Assembly: GCF_947179165.1 (NCBI RefSeq)
Contig: NC_077237.1
Span: forward strand, 88,078,341 to 88,142,340
Direction of reading: 5' to 3'
DNA length: 64,000 bases
DNA from: Solanum dulcamara
Taxonomy: Eukaryota; Streptophyta; Magnoliopsida; Solanales; Solanaceae
Below, piece after piece: positions 3,256-58,914 of this stretch (position 1 is its first letter; each line of letters begins with the position of its first letter). The position numbers were made by a program, and so were the translations under genes. The notes below the pieces were generated by a model, which saw nothing but the letters and a program-made list of their open reading frames with translations, had not been told where the DNA came from and ran no database searches.

Positions 3256-5419
3256 TGGAACTTGTTGAAAGGTTGGCCTGACTTTAGTAACTTGAAAAAT
3301 CAAGGGTAAACATGACCTGTTTTTGTGGATGTTACATTTTGACCTTTATTTTTTTTATTGATATTATTATTGTTATTGTTATTATTGTTACCTATAATTA
3401 ACTTACTATATCATGTTTAGTGTTTGAAACATAAAATTTGAATTACTATATTTCATGTTTCAATTGCTTATTCTATACATTCTAAAATCAATTTGGGCAT
3501 GTTTTATATCTTAAATAATCTGTCATGTATGTCCCACAACATAATTTTCTTTACATTAATTTTTAAGTGCTTAATCATAGTAGCTTATATGCCACATTAT
3601 TGAATTAGAAATGTTTGTTCTACATCCTAACATAACTTGAAAATTTCAAATTTGTAACTATAGTAAAAAATTGATTTTTTTAAAGAAAATATTATAAAAT
3701 TTTATTATTCAAATAAAATTAGATTTATGATCCACTCTAAAAAAAAATTGTTATGGAAAAATAACTAAAACACATGATTGGTTATAGATATCCATTCTTG
3801 GCTGCTACCAAAATTGAATACACCTAATGTTAGGAGCTAATTTGTGGGCTATGCTTAGAGTTAAATCAAAGTAATACATAGAATACAAAATAAAAATAAA
3901 GAAAATAATATAATAGAAAAAGTAGGCAAAAAGAGAGATAAATAAAATAAATTAAAATAGGAACACCACAAATGAAAAGAACAAAAGATAATTTAATTTA
4001 ATGAAGTTCAAATTAATGTCACTTTCTAGTCATAATTGATCAAATGCTAGAGAGAAAGTTTGTCAATAAAATAAGGCCACATCATCCAAGTACCCAAAAG
4101 ATATTTTTTCAAAGGAATAATAAAAGTATAATCTCTTAAATTATTAGTAAATTTTAATTTTACTTCTCGTAGTTTTTGACAATTTATTTAATTTTAATAA
4201 TTAAATTATGTTTTTGTCTCGTTACATACACAATATGTTATGTTTAGATTATTTTAGTATAAATAAATTTTCTTTCACAAATAACTAACTTTTTTGACAA
4301 GGGAGATAGGTATCATTTCCATATCTCGTCCTATTAGAGCCTAACGTATAAAGGTTCGATAGAAAATGCGATAAAAGGATGTTCCTAGGCCTTCTACATA
4401 TTCTTTATTTTTATTCTTTCTATTTTTTTACTTATTAAGAGAGAAAATACGAGGTAACAATACAAATTTAAGTAAAATGATAAATTTTATGACTATTCAT
4501 TAATAAATGAGTCAACAATGCATATTTCAATCAATTAAAGATTAATTATCGTACTTATTCAGATATCAGAAGAATCAAAATTATAATTTATTAATAATTA
4601 AAAAGATAGAAAGTGTTGTTAACCTGTGTAAAATGTGCCACTTTCTTTGTTATAATACAAAATACTAATGGAAATAAAATAAAACATAGACACACTAAAC
4701 TTTGCTACTACTTGCCATTGTTGAAAAGCCTCCACAAATAGTGTCCAAACTTTTAGCCATCACTTATGAATTATCTTTCTTTATTAGTTATTTAGTCAAA
4801 TTCTTACTGCAAAAGTCCAATCAATAACTTACAACCTTAAAAAAAAATCTTGCAATTTAAACAAATAAGCTGATTAGAGTGCTACCAAGTTTCGTTTTTG
4901 GTTGCAACCCCAAATTCCCGGAAGAATGAAATTCAAAAAGTCTTTGCTTCGATTATCGAATTATATATTGTTGCTATTGTTTATTTCTTAATTATGCTCA
5001 GCATGATTGCTTCACTACTGTATTTTTCTCATATCTAATTTTATTATCATTTATTTAAATTGAAGATTTATCGAAAACAATCTTTTTATCTTCATAAGAT
5101 AAATATAAGACTACATACCACCGACCCGTATATATGTTGTTTGTTGCACCAAATAATAAGCCCATCATCTAATTATTATTTTGTGTTAAGAAAAGAAAAA
5201 CAGAGCCAGCCAGCAACAAAAACGTGATATTGCCATTCAATTAGTTATTTCTTGTCTTATTGACCATTACATTGACACCTACAGAGGTTATTTTTTCCAT
5301 TTTAGTGCAGGCTAACGTATATTCGATATATTATTTCGTATTAATAAATCATTATATGAGGACAGTGCATTCATGTCTGCAGGTTATCAAGTAAATAGGG
5401 GTCTTCGAACGGTTTTCCT

Positions 5420-5495
5420 CGTTTGCTGAATGGTTAGATTGTCATATATATCAAATGACATAGATTTTGAGTTCGAATCTTTAATGTGAAACCAT
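5420..5495 (+). repeat. tRNA-like / SINE relic
   Basis: The segment contains an A-box-like gctgaatggttagattgtca and, about 45 bp on, a B-box-like gagttcgaatcttt. It does not close into a tRNA cloverleaf that I can see, so a decayed SINE head is more likely than a tRNA gene. Confidence 0.3.
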
Positions 5496-6404
5496 TTTTA
5501 ATAGTGAATATTTTACTTCTTAAAATATGAACTTTCGATGCGAATCAGAATTAATTGGACTCCAAAACAGATATCATCATTAACGAGAAATCAATATTTT
5601 ATTTTATGCATCATAAAGCTGAGGCAAATCATATAAAATGAAACAAAAACAAGCAAGCAATTAGCAACCTCATATGACCACATCATTTATTATATAATAT
5701 CCACTGAAGTTGTAGTGAAATAATTAAACAATTTTCAATAGCCATCACTTATTTTTTTATTACTATATTATTAAGAAGTTTTCATGATTTCTGTGCTATT
5801 ATTTTTTTTCCAAGCCGCACTCCATCCTTGACTGATTGGTGAACTTCTTAATTTTTTTTATTATTTGATTTCTCAAATCACAATATGTTAAAATGTAGGA
5901 TTGATCTGAATCTTGATATGCACTATGTAAATAAAAATTTATATAATCAAAATATAATATTTAATGTGTTGAATAAGGCCTTTCATTGATTTTATATATA
6001 TTATTAATGTTAATATACATATAAGTTAAAACCTCAAAAGGTCAAAAAAAACAAAAAAAGGAATGGTAAATTGTTCCTGTTATTTTATAGATATAGAATT
6101 TAAGTCCTATACACCAACTTGATAGAAGTTGTTTGCTCTATCAATTCACTTGTAAGGTAATTACATATAAATATCTTCAAAAAGCAGTTCATCCATCAAC
6201 AGAAATACTTTTGTAGTATTTTACAAACTTGTTTTTAGTTTTACATCTGCATAAAATCTAAAAAGGTCATTTTCTTCCGTTCAATTTGTAAGAATTTGTA
6301 AGTGTGACATAAGAAATCATTTCCTCTGATGAATGTAGGATATTAGTATATAATCTCAACATTATTCTGCCTATATAATACAATGATTAGAGTTCATACA
6401 TTGG

Positions 6405-6870
6405 CTGAAAGAGGCTGCTGTTGGACTCAATCTCCCATGTAACTGAGGTCACGTTCAATCACATGCCCCCACATCTTATCAATTTTTACTCCATCCCATA
6501 GACAGTAATCTCTGTTCATAATCCATGGATTGTCTTTGGATAAGATTCCCGGCAGTAGTAATCACAAATACTTGATAAAGGACCTACAATAAGCATTTTC
6601 TTGAATCTTAGGTCCAAAAGAGCACAAACATCTAGTATTTGCAATTACTATGGTAAAAGATCTTATCCAAAAACAAACTAATGGAATAAGAGCGGAGATT
6701 GTTGCTTATGGGATGAAGTTAAATGCAATGAGACGTCGGGCCAAGTGATTGAACTTGACATCAGTTGTAGCCTGTGGGGACGATGATTGATTCCAATAGC
6801 ACCCTCTTACAGCTCTCTCAGCTCCAAAGGCTCGACCTTTCTTGGAATAACTTATCCAATTCTCACATCT
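6405..6870. repeat. Hcr9/Cf-derived foldback unit 1
   Basis: An inverted repeat. The arm at about 6405-6580 reads, on the minus strand, SYPKTNPWIMNRDYCLWDGV then VIERDLSY. The arm at about 6628-6800 reads, on the plus strand, WNKSGDCCLWDEVKCNETSG then QVIELDISCS. Both are the N-terminal cap (LRRNT, Cys-Cys-x-Trp) of Cf-9/Hcr9-type receptor-like proteins. The pairing continues through the ggataagat and aatcacaaatactt segments up to a loop of about 50 bp. Past arm B, a shifted frame gives QLSQLQRLDLSWNNLSNSHI, the first LRR. Stops and frameshifts exclude a functional receptor. The structure could give a hairpin RNA. Confidence 0.8.
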
Positions 6871-6880
6871 CAAATGTGGC
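6640..6880 (+). pseudogene. Hcr9-type LRR receptor-like protein fragment, copy 1
   Basis: About 80 codons resembling the Cf-9/Hcr9 N-terminus. The fragment runs from SYPKTN and the WNKSGDCCLWDEVKC cap motif, through TSGQVIELDIS, to the first leucine-rich repeat LSQLQRLDLSWNNLS. A frameshift near 6775-6785 separates the two parts. The signal peptide, the remaining LRRs and the membrane anchor are absent. Intact family members are extracellular LRR receptors for apoplastic fungal effectors. This copy cannot make one. Confidence 0.75.
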
Positions 6881-7390
6881 TTGGAAGAGGATGACATTGG
6901 ACTCAATCGTCCCTGCAACTGAGGTCATGTTCAATCACATGCCCCCACGTCTTATCACGTTCCACACCATCCCATAGACAACTATCTCTTCTCGTATTCC
7001 ATGAGTTGTCTCTAGATAAGATTCCTGACCGTAGTAATCACAGATGCTCGATGAGGGACCTACCTAAGCATTTTCTTGAATTTTAGAAGGGAAATGCTTT
7101 ATCAGAAATTTCTGTCCAAAAAGAGCACGGTCATCTAGTATTTGTGATTACTACGTTAAAAGATCTTATCCAAAAACACTATCACGGAATATGAGCAGAG
7201 ATTGTTGCTTATGGGATGGAGTTAACTGTGATGAGACGTCGGACCAGGTGATTGAACTTGACATCAGTTGTAGCTAGTGGGGACGATGATTGATTCCAAT
7301 AGCATCCTCTTCCAGCTCTCTCATCTCCAAAGGCTCGACCTTTCTTGGAATAACATATCCAGTTCTCACATCTTGGACAATAGATGACTT
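6880..7390. repeat. Hcr9/Cf-derived foldback unit 2
   Basis: A second copy of the same antisense-loop-sense structure, offset by about 480 bp from unit 1. The antisense arm is about 6880-7060 and the sense arm about 7130-7300. The sense arm reads SRDCCLWDGVNCDETSDQVI then ELDISCS followed by TAG. In another frame it gives FQLSHLQRLDLSWNNISSSH. The two units share 75-85% of bases by eye and so arose by tandem duplication of an already inverted unit. Coding capacity is broken, while the inverted symmetry is kept in both units. Confidence 0.8.
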
Positions 7391-7400
7391 TAACTGTATT
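7145..7400 (+). pseudogene. Hcr9-type LRR receptor-like protein fragment, copy 2
   Basis: Same part of the receptor as copy 1: the CCLWDGVNCDETS cap motif, then VIELDIS, then a TAG stop at about 7274-7276. After a frame change it reads LSHLQRLDLSWNN. The sequence diverges from the receptor family beyond about 7375. This is the sense arm of foldback unit 2. Confidence 0.75.
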
Positions 7401-7519
7401 CTACTAAGAAATGTGGCACTTTCTGTATACATGTTAGAACCGGTGGCGCTGATCATGAGTCAATCAACAAATTATGCCTTTGGTTTTGCTAGAACTGCAG
7501 TTTGTTAACTCACGCATCG

Positions 7520-8464
7520 TAAGCTAGAGTCCACGTAATCTATGTGATATACAGATCTATTTGCGGCCTTCGCGTCAAGAATTTCCTAAAAAAGACACGA
7601 CCACATGAGCCAAAACTTAGTAAGAAATGGTACAAATAAAGAGGAAAACAATGTACAAAAAGATCAGGGATATAGAAAGTTAAGTATAGAAATGTTAAGC
7701 AAATAGGAATATTAATGGAGCAGACTTCTAAGATCAATAAGATTCAAAAAAAACTTCTATACAGTTCATGTCAGTTTGTGTGCAGTATATCAATATAAGA
7801 TTGTAGACCGAAAAATTCAACATTGGCATAATAAAAATACACCAGAAGCTTTACAGATCTCGAGACATGTTGGTTTAAGTCTTAGCTCCAACGTCCACAT
7901 GTCAATTAAGGAAATACGAAACTACTCATCCAAGATAAACTTGGTCCTTTATGATGGAAGTTTTTAGTGTAGAACTACGCGAGCTGAAAATAGTGGTGAA
8001 TTCTTTGCATGGGATAATAGCATTTTGACACTAGAAATTAGACATATTTGCTTCTACTGTATATCTCATTTGATGACTGAAAAATAAAACGAAACTACTG
8101 ATACATGTACAATGGTTGTTTATAAGGAAGGTCAAGTATAACATTTAGCTGAAGCGAGCTACTTAATAAAGCATTTAACAGCATTAAAAACATTGCCAGG
8201 GACTAGAGTAGCTAATGAGTCAAGTAATAGTATAAGGTTAGAGGGCATACCGTTGTATCAAAAATTTGAAGCCTTCCCCTGCAAATCTGTGATGATGCAT
8301 TATGTATATATATGTTCTGTATGAGCTATAAAACCGTTTATCTCTGATTTCGACCTTTGTCCTTGAGAATCTGTGTACCAACGATCATCATTAGTCCTTG
8401 GACAGGCCTTCCAGAGAACCTCATAGTTCTAAATTTCAGCTGGTGTATCAACCTCAAATACAAT
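7520..8464. other. 3' flank of LdpA-like gene, no other gene
   Basis: AT-rich sequence between the foldback units and the stop codon of the minus-strand Fe-S gene. The part next to 8464 must hold that gene's 3'UTR. No clear poly(A) signal stands out, and no ORF has family resemblance. Confidence 0.5.
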
Positions 8465-11400
8465 CTAAGTGCTCTGCTTCTGGATGTTGTAACATTTAAC
8501 AGTTCCAACCAGAGCTAGTGATTCAATAATGGCCTGCAGAAGTTGCTCGGGGAAATCTTCAACACAAGCAAGTCCGTGATGACTTTGCACAGAACTCAAA
8601 ACTCTACCGACAATCTGAAGGGGGAATAAGGAGATTAAATTATGATACTGCTATAGTATTTAGCCTATGCAGTTGATTGGATAGACTAGAATAATTTCCA
8701 TGATTGGCAATAAGGACCTACCTTTCGTGCATAGCCGCCAAAGGCCACACCAGCAATCAAAGCATTTGGTGAATGTAAGGTGCTCGGAATTGTCTCATAT
8801 CTTGAAGCCTCTAAATGAATGTGTGGATTGATGTCAAAACTTCAGTGTTATATGGAATATGAACTTCATAAAGTGTGGACTGTGGAGTTAATACCGTGTA
8901 TGGTCGTTGTTTGGAATAATCTCTCTGTTTTCAACCCCTCCACTGTGTGACCATTGGTACCACCCGCCAGTTGAAGGAAGCCTATAACGTAGGAAGAATC
9001 TTAAAATTTCACTAGCGAGTTGTTTATAGCAATAGCCAACAATGAGTCATATCATGTCATTTATCAAAAGAATTATTTTATGCGCAAACCTTTAGGCTTG
9101 TCGCCAGCAGAGGCCAATTTTCGTGCAAAAGCAATTGCATCCCTTGTGGCACCTCGCCCAATATCTCCACTCATTGGTCGACCATCCAACTTCAATTACA
9201 ATCATTAGTAGAAATGATATGAAAATATATTTGGAGCATCCTAGCTTCTAAATCAATTAGTGATAGGACACATGATCTGCACCTGCCATAAGTTGACGCA
9301 TTGTATGCTGGCTTCCATTATGGAGTACATAGCTTTCATTGCAGATATGGTTGAATCTCTCAAGTCTGGAAAGCTAACCTGCACGAAACCATGATAAAAA
9401 CATTTTTTTTAACATACTTCTTGAAATGGAATAAGTTACTTGAACTTACTAGTTGATCCTCCTTCCGTTTGAATTTGTTTGTTTGGTTTTGACTTGTCAG
9501 GGAGTTTAAGAAAATAAAAAAGACTTTTGAATCTTGTGATCTTAAACTAAAGATATATCGAATGTACCAAAATTGTCTTTATTCTCGTGGTTTAAACATG
9601 TCATATGGAAAGTTAGAATTAAAGAGTTGTCAATAAAGGAAAGAGACACTCTTTTTAAATGGACTAAAAAAGAAAAGTAGGACAAACAAATTGAAATGGA
9701 GGGAGTAGTATTTAATGTGGCCAACAATCAAATAAAGAGTAACGGCTTCACATACTGCCACGAGCTTCAGATTTGCAGTTGAATTCCCCAGCCCAGTCCA
9801 GAGTTCTTTAAAAACTGAAGGTTCCCTATTCCAAAAATGAGAATGCAGATAAGATACACTTTTTAGCTACAAATTCATGTTACTCTGACAATGTGACAAA
9901 GAACTATTTGTACATTTTGTTTGAGATTACTGTTGTTACAGAATTTAGGAGAAGCAAAATCAGATTGTATTGCAGAAGTATATTTTGAGTAAGTATCTAT
10001 TATATGGGTTAAGTTTGTGTCTCAATTGAATAAGTAATGAAAATGCACACTTGAATGATTTCGGGGAATATATTAACCAAAAAGAAAATTATGCTAACCT
10101 TCCACTGGTATGAATTTCTATGGCATCAACATCATCCCTTTCAAGAAGTTCAGCTGTAGCTGTAACATCTCTCACATACGTAATAGCTCCTAAATCAACA
10201 AAAGTTTTTTTTATGAATTCAATTTGCAGAAAAACAACAATGCTAACGTAAAAGGGCATGGAGGAGGTGAAAATAGACGAGCAGCAGTACGCAAAAAACA
10301 TGGTGACAGAACGAGAAACGTTTTTTTTAGACAAGTGACCAGATTTATGGAACTCACTTATTTTGTCGTACGGACAAACCGGAAGGCAGCGACCACAACC
10401 ATAACAGCGCTCAGCCAAAACCCCGCCCTGCAATATTTACAGATGTAGCCTTTAGAAATGAACATGGATAAGCTTTAAAACGAATATAGCAGCTATAGTG
10501 TAAATCAAGGCAATTCAAAATGGAGAGAACCTTTTGCAATATTGCATTAGCAGGACACACTTTCTCACAAGGTCTCATGCAATCCCAAGGGCAATCATCC
10601 GGATCAAATTCTGCAACATTATCATAGACAGCTAGAGTATTAAACCCACACATCTTATTTACGAATACTTTCCATGAGTAATCTCATTCATGATATTTGA
10701 TCTAATTTTCCCAGTACCATTCAATTTCGAAAGGGTGACCATCTGCCCATTTTAGGAGACTGAAAGATCATAGAATCCAATGAAAATGACGATGCATTAG
10801 AAACTACTCTGTATGATAAACTAGAGTTCTTTGAGTTAAATGCTTCTGATGGTCCGTGCAATGTTTGATGAAGTAAGATCCAATGATAGTTAAAAACTCA
10901 TTGCAAAAGGACCGATATTAGAAAGCCTCAATATGGACGACAAAGTTCTAAAAACGGGAATAATCAAAACCATTTCACAGTTTCAAATGCTTCAGAAGAT
11001 TATGCACTCCCATCAGAAGCTTACTTTTTTTTTATAACCGAGAAACCCCCGACCAGTGCATGGTTCAGAACTCGGTGGATCACGGGCTAGCCCATCTACC
11101 CTTCTCCACTTAAATACCATATTTTTTACTGGCAACTTTTTGTCTACGACAGGGTAGCAATCATACTTGTACTAAAAGAAACTTTTACCCCTACATCACG
11201 TAACCAAGATTATGAGTATCAGAAAGGACAAATATGCTGGTTGAAGTCAAAGTGTCGGGGGAGTTACCAGCTTTACGGAAATGAAGATCTTCATCATCAT
11301 TAACACTGATCATTACCCAAGGCCTGCGTATGGGCACAAGGGCTCTGGCTGCTTCTATCCCTTCATTTACAGCATTCACCACTGAAGCCTCAGCAGCGCA

Positions 11401-31732: not shown

Positions 31733-31922
31733 TCAATTTTGGGTGTGCACAAATACGCACTTAAATTTGTATGAAGTTGAACAAGTAGATACATGCATCC
31801 TACATGATAATTCAAGTGAAATATACTCGGACTGATTTGTATTATGCCATGTAGGATATGTGTGTCTACTTGTTCAGTTTTATACAAATTTAAATATCTA
31901 TTTGTGTACAACAAAAATTGTA
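31733..31922. mobile_element. Foldback MITE
   Basis: The left arm 31733-31812 (tgcacaaatacgcacttaaa, ttgtatgaagttgaacaagt, agatacatgcatcctacatg) is the inverse of the right arm 31845-31922 (catgtaggatatgtgtgtct, acttgttcagttttatacaa, atttaaatatctatttgtgt). Arms are about 80% complementary with a spacer of about 30 bp. Size and symmetry fit a foldback MITE. The superfamily is not clear because no convincing target-site duplication stands out. Confidence 0.7.
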
Positions 31923-32967: not shown

Positions 32968-34242
32968 ATGTCTCAAGGAAAGATGAAGGAAGACGATATA
33001 TCTTACGCAAATGTCAAGAGAAATGATCATGTATTACTCGATATCGTGAAAGAAGAAGAAGAAGATCTTGTACAATCAATTGATGAAAAGATGAAAAATA
33101 TCTCAAGTTTTCATCGTATCAACAGAGTTCCTAAAGAACTTAGAAAGGGAAGTGAATATAGTTACTCTCCTAAATTAGTCTCAATAGGTCCTTTTCATCA
33201 TGGAGTTGATAATCTTAAAACCATGGAGGAATATAAGTGGTGTTATCTCAACACACTTGTTAGTAGAAAAACAATAAACACACAAACCATTTTAGAGAAT
33301 TGTGTGAAAACACTTAGAAATTTAGAGGATAAAGCAAGAAAATGCTATGGTGAAAACACAATTGATCAAATAGGAAGTAATGAGTTTGTCCAAATGATGT
33401 TACTTGATAGTGGTTTTCTCATTGAGGTCTTTATCAAGTTTGCTCTAAAGGGTTTTCGACGTAGAGATGACACTCTCTTTAGCAACTACGAGAAGTTTTA
33501 CCATCTGAGATGTGACTTGATTCTATTTGAAAACCAAATCCCATTTTTTATCCTTCACCAAATGTTTCACTTAGTTCCAATTCCTAAAGAATGTACTTAT
33601 TCCCTCATTCAACTTGCCTTACTCTTCTTTAGAAAATTGATTCCTGGAGAAGGACTTGTAACTATAGGGAAATTTGGTCCTAATGTTCACCATTTATTGG
33701 ACTTAATTCATCATTGTTATCTCCCAACAAGTCCACAAATTCACTCAAATGGAACAGAAAAACATATGTACAATGTACTACATCTTCATGATATAGGGAT
33801 CAAGTTCAAGAAAGCAATAAGTGATAGTGTCATGAATGTAAGATTCACCAAAGACAAAGTCTTGGAAATCCCATTATTGAAATTACACAACTACTCTGAG
33901 ATTTTATTCAAAAATATGGTGGCAATGGAGCAATGTGATACCTTTAAAAGTGGCACGAAGCACGTCACGTCTTATGTTTACCTCATGAAAAGTCTTGTAA
34001 GGTCTGCAGATGATGCAAGCTATTTGAGACAAAGGGAGATTTTGAATAGCAGTTTGTATAATGATGAAGAGATTTTTCAACTGATGCTGAGGCTTCATGT
34101 GGAGCACTTTGATGTCATGGATTTCTATTATAGTGGACTTTGTGAGAAAGTTGATGGTTACAAGAATAAAACTAAGTGGAAAGAATGCTGCCAGAAAATT
34201 AGCTATGTATATAAGAAGACTGCCAAAAGAATTTCATGCTAA
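32968..34242 (+). CDS. DUF247 (UPF0481) family protein, anchor missing
   Basis: An intronless ORF of 424 aa starting MSQGKMKEDDISYANVKRND. The DUF247 landmarks are INRVPKELRKG, YSPKLVSIGPFHHG, MEEYKWCYL, NEFVQMMLLDSGFLIE, DLILFENQIPFFIL, and late LVRSADDASYLRQREIL. The function of the family is not settled in general, and most members are plant-specific membrane-associated proteins. Typical members end in one hydrophobic helix. Here the protein stops at ...CQKISYVYKKTAKRISC with none. Translating in frame past the TAA gives a hydrophobic stretch (HFLLVVFVFLLQF), so the anchor may have been lost by a stop mutation, or the helix may be a chance reading of T-rich 3' sequence. The start at 32968 is the first ATG of the frame. 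Confidence 0.85.
   Translation: MSQGKMKEDDISYANVKRNDHVLLDIVKEEEEDLVQSIDEKMKNISSFHRINRVPKELRKGSEYSYSPKLVSIGPFHHGVDNLKTMEEYKWCYLNTLVSRKTINTQTILENCVKTLRNLEDKARKCYGENTIDQIGSNEFVQMMLLDSGFLIEVFIKFALKGFRRRDDTLFSNYEKFYHLRCDLILFENQIPFFILHQMFHLVPIPKECTYSLIQLALLFFRKLIPGEGLVTIGKFGPNVHHLLDLIHHCYLPTSPQIHSNGTEKHMYNVLHLHDIGIKFKKAISDSVMNVRFTKDKVLEIPLLKLHNYSEILFKNMVAMEQCDTFKSGTKHVTSYVYLMKSLVRSADDASYLRQREILNSSLYNDEEIFQLMLRLHVEHFDVMDFYYSGLCEKVDGYKNKTKWKECCQKISYVYKKTAKRISC

Positions 34243-41206: not shown

Positions 41207-58914
<17,708 letters not shown>

Follow-up and report, generated by a model that had tools for sequence, protein, structure and literature searches.

Tandem foldbacks made from a receptor-like protein gene segment in Solanum dulcamara: a probable old relic of inverted duplication

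Two related foldbacks stand in tandem in a 64-kb stretch of the 942-Mb Solanum dulcamara genome (C1:88078341-88142340, hereafter the window), in both of which the gene segment that encodes the N-terminus of an LRR receptor-like protein (RLP) is present twice, once in antisense and once in sense orientation. In our opinion, this locus is probably an old relic of inverted duplication, or a dying proto-MIRNA, which was derived from an RLP segment, doubled in tandem, and is drifting unmaintained. In this proposed history, an RLP gene segment (from the N-terminus to the first LRR) would have been duplicated head to head, giving rise to a foldback; after much divergence of its arms, the whole foldback would have been duplicated in tandem, and from then on the arms would have drifted, without pairing, coding or targeting imposing any clear constraint on them.

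The two units (6402-6870 and 6877-7373) are direct copies of each other, 81% identical by BLAST, and each one is itself an inverted repeat, in which an antisense arm is followed by a very short loop (4 nt in unit 1 and 10 nt in unit 2) and by a sense arm. The antisense arm of unit 1 (A1, 6403-6598, minus strand, located by the MFE stem and by tblastn to the RLPs L003, L006 and L007) is the 5' arm of the first plus-strand hairpin, and its sense arm (S1, 6603-6870, plus strand, located by folding and alignment) is paired up to 6814, beyond which about 56 nt more of RLP-like sequence stay unpaired. The corresponding arms of unit 2 are A2 (6878-7077, minus strand, from folding and tblastn) and S2 (7088-7373, plus strand, from folding and alignment), the latter being paired up to 7317; at the loop end of S2 there is a 27-nt segment (7087-7113) which unit 1 does not have. 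The hairpins are therefore 412 nt (6403-6814) and 440 nt (6878-7317) long, with an identity between arms of 68% in unit 1 (195 columns) and 75% in unit 2 (188 columns), and none of the four arm copies preserves an intact receptor frame. This anatomy is clearly not the product of chance. BLAST, alignment and folding all agree with the initial annotation, which had described two tandem units of antisense and sense copies, with coding frames broken in every copy; the arms of about 175 bp that it mentioned are real, but they span 196-230 nt (bulges included) and are thus rather longer.

The receptor segment present in the arms extends from about the SYPKT motif, through CCLWDG and VIELDxSC, up to the first LRR, and the remainder of the receptor is absent. 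Three RLP proteins from the same genome match the four arms by tblastn (E 0.01) and, at this same threshold, find no other match within the 64-kb window; LRRNT_2 and LRR domains are present in two of the three, and one of them can be aligned, over its length, with the solved structure of a plant RLP (7drb). Both arms of a unit are homologous to one gene family, in opposite orientation and around a short loop, which is the arrangement by which an inverted duplication is recognized. The family assignment is based on the RLPs of the genome itself, because neither a protein search with the sense segment (in a set of 5.8 billion) nor a Pfam search with its 80-residue reading returned a match, and the matches from the PDB were weak, although mostly to LRR receptors (best E 0.0034). 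The comparison with the genome's own RLP genes, which the initial annotation had proposed as a check, finds all four arms matched, and the origin from a receptor N-terminus that it had suggested is supported, in the form of an inverted duplication of an RLP segment. Its "Hcr9/Cf" label is loose: the arms lie apart from the C4, C10 and C6 RLPs which fit miR6023.

The genome search, made from 26 scored candidates, listed 39 matches, two of them being the window itself, and our RLP sample was formed by 25 places outside the window (six loci and 19 further ones). Among the places sampled, the closest piece of RLP type is also on C1, at a distance of about 0.63 Mb, and this contig contains nine of the 25 in its interval from 88.80 to 89.47 Mb. 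With a sense-arm query, a second RLP foldback was not detected among 77 loci located outside both the window and its flanks (some of these loci overlap): the sense arm is matched by 34 of the 77 loci, never on both strands (0/34). A weaker copy located elsewhere could have escaped a search based on the sense arm. The locus L027 was considered as a second RLP foldback and rejected, its inverted repeat not being of RLP sequence. L027 (587-677) and L024 (584-674), which are far apart on C1, have a short RLP fragment in common (93% over 91 bp) as well as a second short match, and possibly represent a mobile element carrying an RLP fragment.

The order of events can be read from a tree in which the four arms were placed together with 22 RLP segments out of the 25 sampled (L024, L025 and L027, being partial, were left out). 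All four arms group in a single clade of their own (support 95/88; 94% of 200 bootstrap trees), placed on the side of the RLPs from C1, C5, C7, C9 and C2, and not of those from C4, C10 and C6, and therefore one RLP segment was inverted-duplicated and the foldback doubled afterwards. Inside this clade, A1 groups with A2 (99/94) and S1 with S2 (100/98), from which it follows that the inverted duplication preceded the tandem duplication. The path lengths are 0.40-0.43 changes per site between antisense and sense arms, 0.27 between A1 and A2, and 0.13 between S1 and S2, and L003, the RLP closest to the arms in this tree, is separated from them by 0.38-0.45; the divergence between the arms of a unit is about equal to their distance from the nearest sampled RLP. 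Assuming roughly 7e-9 neutral changes per site and year, the inverted duplication would date back some 30 million years and the tandem duplication some 10-20 million years. The locus had initially been called young, which does not agree with these estimated ages, nor with arms that are 68-75% identical and as far from each other as they are from L003.

A divergence between arms as large as that from the nearest other RLP would also fit a different origin, in which the foldback is what remains of two neighboring RLP genes, already diverged and in opposite orientation, with a subsequent duplication of the pair; a juxtaposition of related sequences has been described for MIR846 (PMC1790633). We consider this origin improbable, in view of the single clade formed by the four arms against 22 RLPs, and of the nearly identical gene position at which the arms meet, with loops of 4 and 10 nt, even if this last objection is weakened by the approximately 56 nt that the sense arms extend further at their outer end. 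The inverted duplication of one segment is thus the origin that we retain.

Folding, which had been proposed as a further check, gives stable stems of 160 bp in both units, with no collapse into short helices. On the plus strand, 6403-6598 pairs with 6603-6814 in unit 1 (longest unbroken helix of 15 bp) and 6878-7077 with 7088-7317 in unit 2 (18 bp), and when both units are included in one fold the two hairpins stay separate. The MFE is -189.2 kcal/mol for unit 1 (region 6395-6880; z -12.0, shuffle mean -110.6) and -228.4 kcal/mol for unit 2 (region 6870-7400; z -15.8, shuffle mean -131.0), values which none of the 100 shuffles of each region reached. Using general miRNA-duplex criteria (≤5 mismatches and small bulges), 110 of the 176 21-nt windows in unit 1 and 119 of the 180 in unit 2 have a passing geometry, which only shows that the stem is long. 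The usual limit for a MIRNA foldback is 300 nt, and these foldbacks (412 and 440 nt) exceed it. A scan of the whole window against Rfam found no family at the gathering score; MIR7533, MIR2630, MIR2606 and MIR172 appear far below the cut-off, some of them on the other strand, and were rejected as an identity for the locus, since they look like generic long-stem matches.

Long stable stems are also what would be seen in a working inverted-repeat siRNA or MIRNA locus, with both hairpins being transcribed and antisense small RNAs repressing RLPs of the parental clade, a reading to which we give some weight but regard as unlikely. Loci born from their own target family have a precedent (PMC1790633), and the predicted reach of the antisense arms is wide. 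Using a simple mismatch score of our own (cut-off ≤3.5) on the 25 RLP segments, at least one segment is matched by 75 of the 179 21-mers from A1 and by 48 of the 170 from A2, which jointly reach 25/25 and 20/25 segments, respectively, while three out of three shuffles reach none. The broadest reach is predicted for a 22-mer of A1 (6409-6430, plus strand; 14/25 segments at ≤3.5), and a 22-mer of A2 starting with U (6914-6935, plus strand) reaches 12/25. Nevertheless, the sense arms read in reverse, used as control, match no less often (79/180 and 73/180 21-mers), and the windows of 21 columns along the antisense arms include none that is exceptionally similar to the 22 RLPs (p 0.32), so that the targeting potential appears to be inherited, and selection on it is unsupported. 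The proposal that the locus could silence receptor genes therefore stands in principle, as antisense 21-mers do reach RLPs, but they do it no better than the controls.

The persisting complementarity between arms had been taken as a signal of function, which our results do not support, because common descent alone gives such pairing. Arms swapped between units (-190.3 and -174.6, sum -364.9 kcal/mol) pair as well as those within units (-171.3 and -198.3, sum -369.6 kcal/mol), with sums that differ by less than 5 kcal/mol, and the minus strand folds about equally (-193.1 and -229.1 kcal/mol). Among the arm differences on the plus strand, G:U is not above A:C (15 vs 17 and 12 vs 10 in the two units), and hence there is no sign that pairing of the plus-strand RNA was selected; additionally, none of 187 columns had changed in a matching way in the two arms of one unit. 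When the mismatches of unit 2 are randomly re-placed, 166 of 300 arrangements are as low in energy, i.e. the native placement is no better than random. For unit 1 just 5 of 300 are as low, which leans towards maintenance and counts in favor of a working locus, with the loop end in this case taking in columns of doubtful homology. Excluding five columns changed in both, the antisense arm changed in 34 columns and the sense arm in 16 (p 0.015), which speaks against a working miRNA, whose arm should be conserved, and the longest run of identity between A1 and A2 (20 nt) is ordinary (p 0.25). Neither the conserved mature block nor the selection on pairing that characterize a MIRNA was observed, with the exception of the mismatch placement in unit 1, in this one genome; this lack of pairing polarity, of coevolution and of a conserved 21-nt block weighs against a working locus.

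The pattern of change between units was also analyzed. There are 39 differences in 187 columns for the antisense arms and 33 in 262 for the sense arms, with no gaps inside the aligned arms (the four gaps of the global unit alignment, of 1, 1, 27 and 1 nt, are confined to the outer end and the surroundings of the loop). Neutral drift is expected to leave more gaps than those seen inside these arms, and this is another point on the side of a working locus. Methylation decay is usual in dead repeats; here, C:G to T:A changes are not in excess (13 vs 15 in the other direction), so that no sign of it is seen, and this also counts against plain drift. The differences are evenly distributed over codon positions 1, 2 and 3 (11/14/13 for A1/A2 and 8/10/10 for S1/S2), a weak test, because some RLP gene pairs are fairly even as well. 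Judging from the sequence, the arms most likely drifted without clear constraint on pairing, coding or targeting.

In the flanks, a TATATAA word (6372-6378, plus strand) precedes the foot of hairpin 1 by 30 nt; as a possible TATA box it would suit a working locus, but the promoter reading was set aside as too weak, there being nine TATA-like words within 5400-6404. For the 3' flank (7385-8400) there is no other match, and for the 5' flank (5400-6395) 12 short ones were obtained elsewhere, of which 11 fall within 6202-6326 and one at 5462-5575; no element is recognized around the locus from these matches, and its capture by a mobile element was rejected. Exons of an LdpA-like iron-sulfur protein gene run towards the hairpins on the minus strand (8700-10700), and read-through from this gene would transcribe the minus strand of the hairpins, which also folds. 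The rest of the window contains a tandem array of 5.7 copies of a 103-bp unit (1486-2070), another palindromic foldback (31734-31920, 74% self-complementary), an open DUF247 reading frame of 424 residues (32968-34242), and an inverted pair (52797-52958 and 57301-57459, 88% identical and separated by about 4.3 kb), in which a small mobile element may be present twice.

If the plus strand were transcribed, the RNA would fold into two imperfect 160-bp hairpins, which Dicer-like enzymes would cut into heterogeneous 21-24-nt RNAs, and the products of the antisense 5' arms would reach RLP mRNAs weakly; we judge that such small-RNA activity is weak or lost. The small RNAs acting as a brake on immune receptors are believed to arise from their own targets. 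A bolder scenario, which we hold to be rather improbable, is that of a live tandem double hairpin from an RLP group that is not of the miR6023 type, whose small RNAs would act on the IELDLSC and DSNSSLF motifs and control a large RLP cluster near the same contig end. If true, it would constitute a second, independent birth of a miR6023-like regulator in one receptor superfamily. As a single genome reveals the order of events, the parental group and the possible targets, the steps of birth, drift and death become testable, and the locus is also a warning that a long stem and complementarity to a family are insufficient for a working MIRNA, since both follow from descent.

The closest known system is MIR6023 of Solanaceae (sly-MIR6023, miRBase MI0020240); the tomato miR6023 sequence is printed in PMC9952195. 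As reported in PMC6950276, sly-miR6023 comes from the 5p arm of its precursor, with several small-RNA clusters on one foldback, and its cleavage of Cf-9 was shown by RACE (8/8 fragments), while the authors of a tomato atlas state that their own analyses failed to annotate miR6023, which they retained from earlier work (PMC9569937). In S. dulcamara, a single exact match to the 22-mer exists, on the complementary strand of an RLP segment from C4, at YPKTLSWN, the same motif that is found in the middle of the window arms, and we infer that the tomato Cf-9 site is also at this position. With the RLP segments, miR6023 scores ≤3.5 in 6 of 25 cases, the well-scoring targets being among the C4, C10 and C6 RLPs, outside which the window arms are placed in the tree. 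A broken RLP gene on C4 (L021, C4:82117960-82119325) has a perfect sly-miR6023 site.

Could the locus be a diverged ortholog or sister of MIR6023, whose 5p product cuts Cf-9 transcripts? Its antisense arm is the 5' one, as the published 5p position requires (PMC6950276), and it covers the place homologous to the miR6023 match in the genome's own RLPs; moreover, S2 retains a miR6023-type target site (7168-7189, plus strand) with 3 mismatches to the 22-mer. The genome contains 109 places within 3 mismatches of miR6023 (14 for a backwards control), and among the 50 of these that were folded (30 + 20) the lowest energy is that of the window locus (L046, minus strand; -121.5, the next being -86.0), which pairs 19 of the 22 bases of the miR6023-like 22-mer (stem z -8.9). 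A strong stem is not unique to it, however: at L032 (C3:19899628-19899649, positions 1501-1522 of that locus), a miR6023-like 22-mer with 2 mismatches lies on the 5' side of a strong stem which pairs 20/22 bases (z -7.7), within a long inverted repeat with no RLP similarity. L032 belongs to a sequence type that recurs at many genomic places. L059, L060 and L067 pair 19 bases, but fold no better than shuffles. The mature MIR6023 sequence (UUCCAUGAAAGAGUUUUUGGAU), or a near copy of it on a 5p arm, is absent from the window at ≤3 mismatches, the sole match at this level being the complement of the sense-arm site 7168-7189, and the equivalent places in the antisense arms according to the arm/RLP alignment (6521-6541 in A1 and 6997-7017 in A2, plus strand) are diverged, one base shorter, different from each other and both beyond 3 mismatches. 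With arms that, in addition, come from another RLP group than the one scoring well with miR6023, and with two tandem hairpins, unlike MIR6023, such kinship seems very unlikely to us. The locus resembles MIR6023, or could once have worked like it; an identity with MIR6023 is unsupported.

Among other small RNAs of tomato, miR6022 presumably fits an LRR motif outside the segment present in the window. Together with sly-miR00093, sly-miR6022 has been reported as directed at the Cf-9 receptor family, the same family as that of the window arms, and the RACE described in that report confirmed miR00093 and not miR6022 (PMC6950276). No paper connecting Hcr9 genes with inverted repeats and small RNAs was retrieved from the literature, and six probes of 12-15 nt found no printed mature miRNA from the arms in PMC main texts. 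Inverted-duplication MIRNAs of Arabidopsis, such as MIR163, MIR161, MIR824 and MIR778, among others, are described in PMC1790633, and the window arms are like them in being similar to a protein-coding family beyond a 21-nt site. Those loci have sequenced miRNAs, while the foldbacks presented here are predicted from sequence, and several of the Arabidopsis loci show a miRNA block more conserved than its flanks (PMC1790633). No such block was found in the window arms. Drift and death, the course that we consider probable for the S. dulcamara foldbacks, is perhaps the commonest fate of such inverted-duplication loci (PMC1790633).
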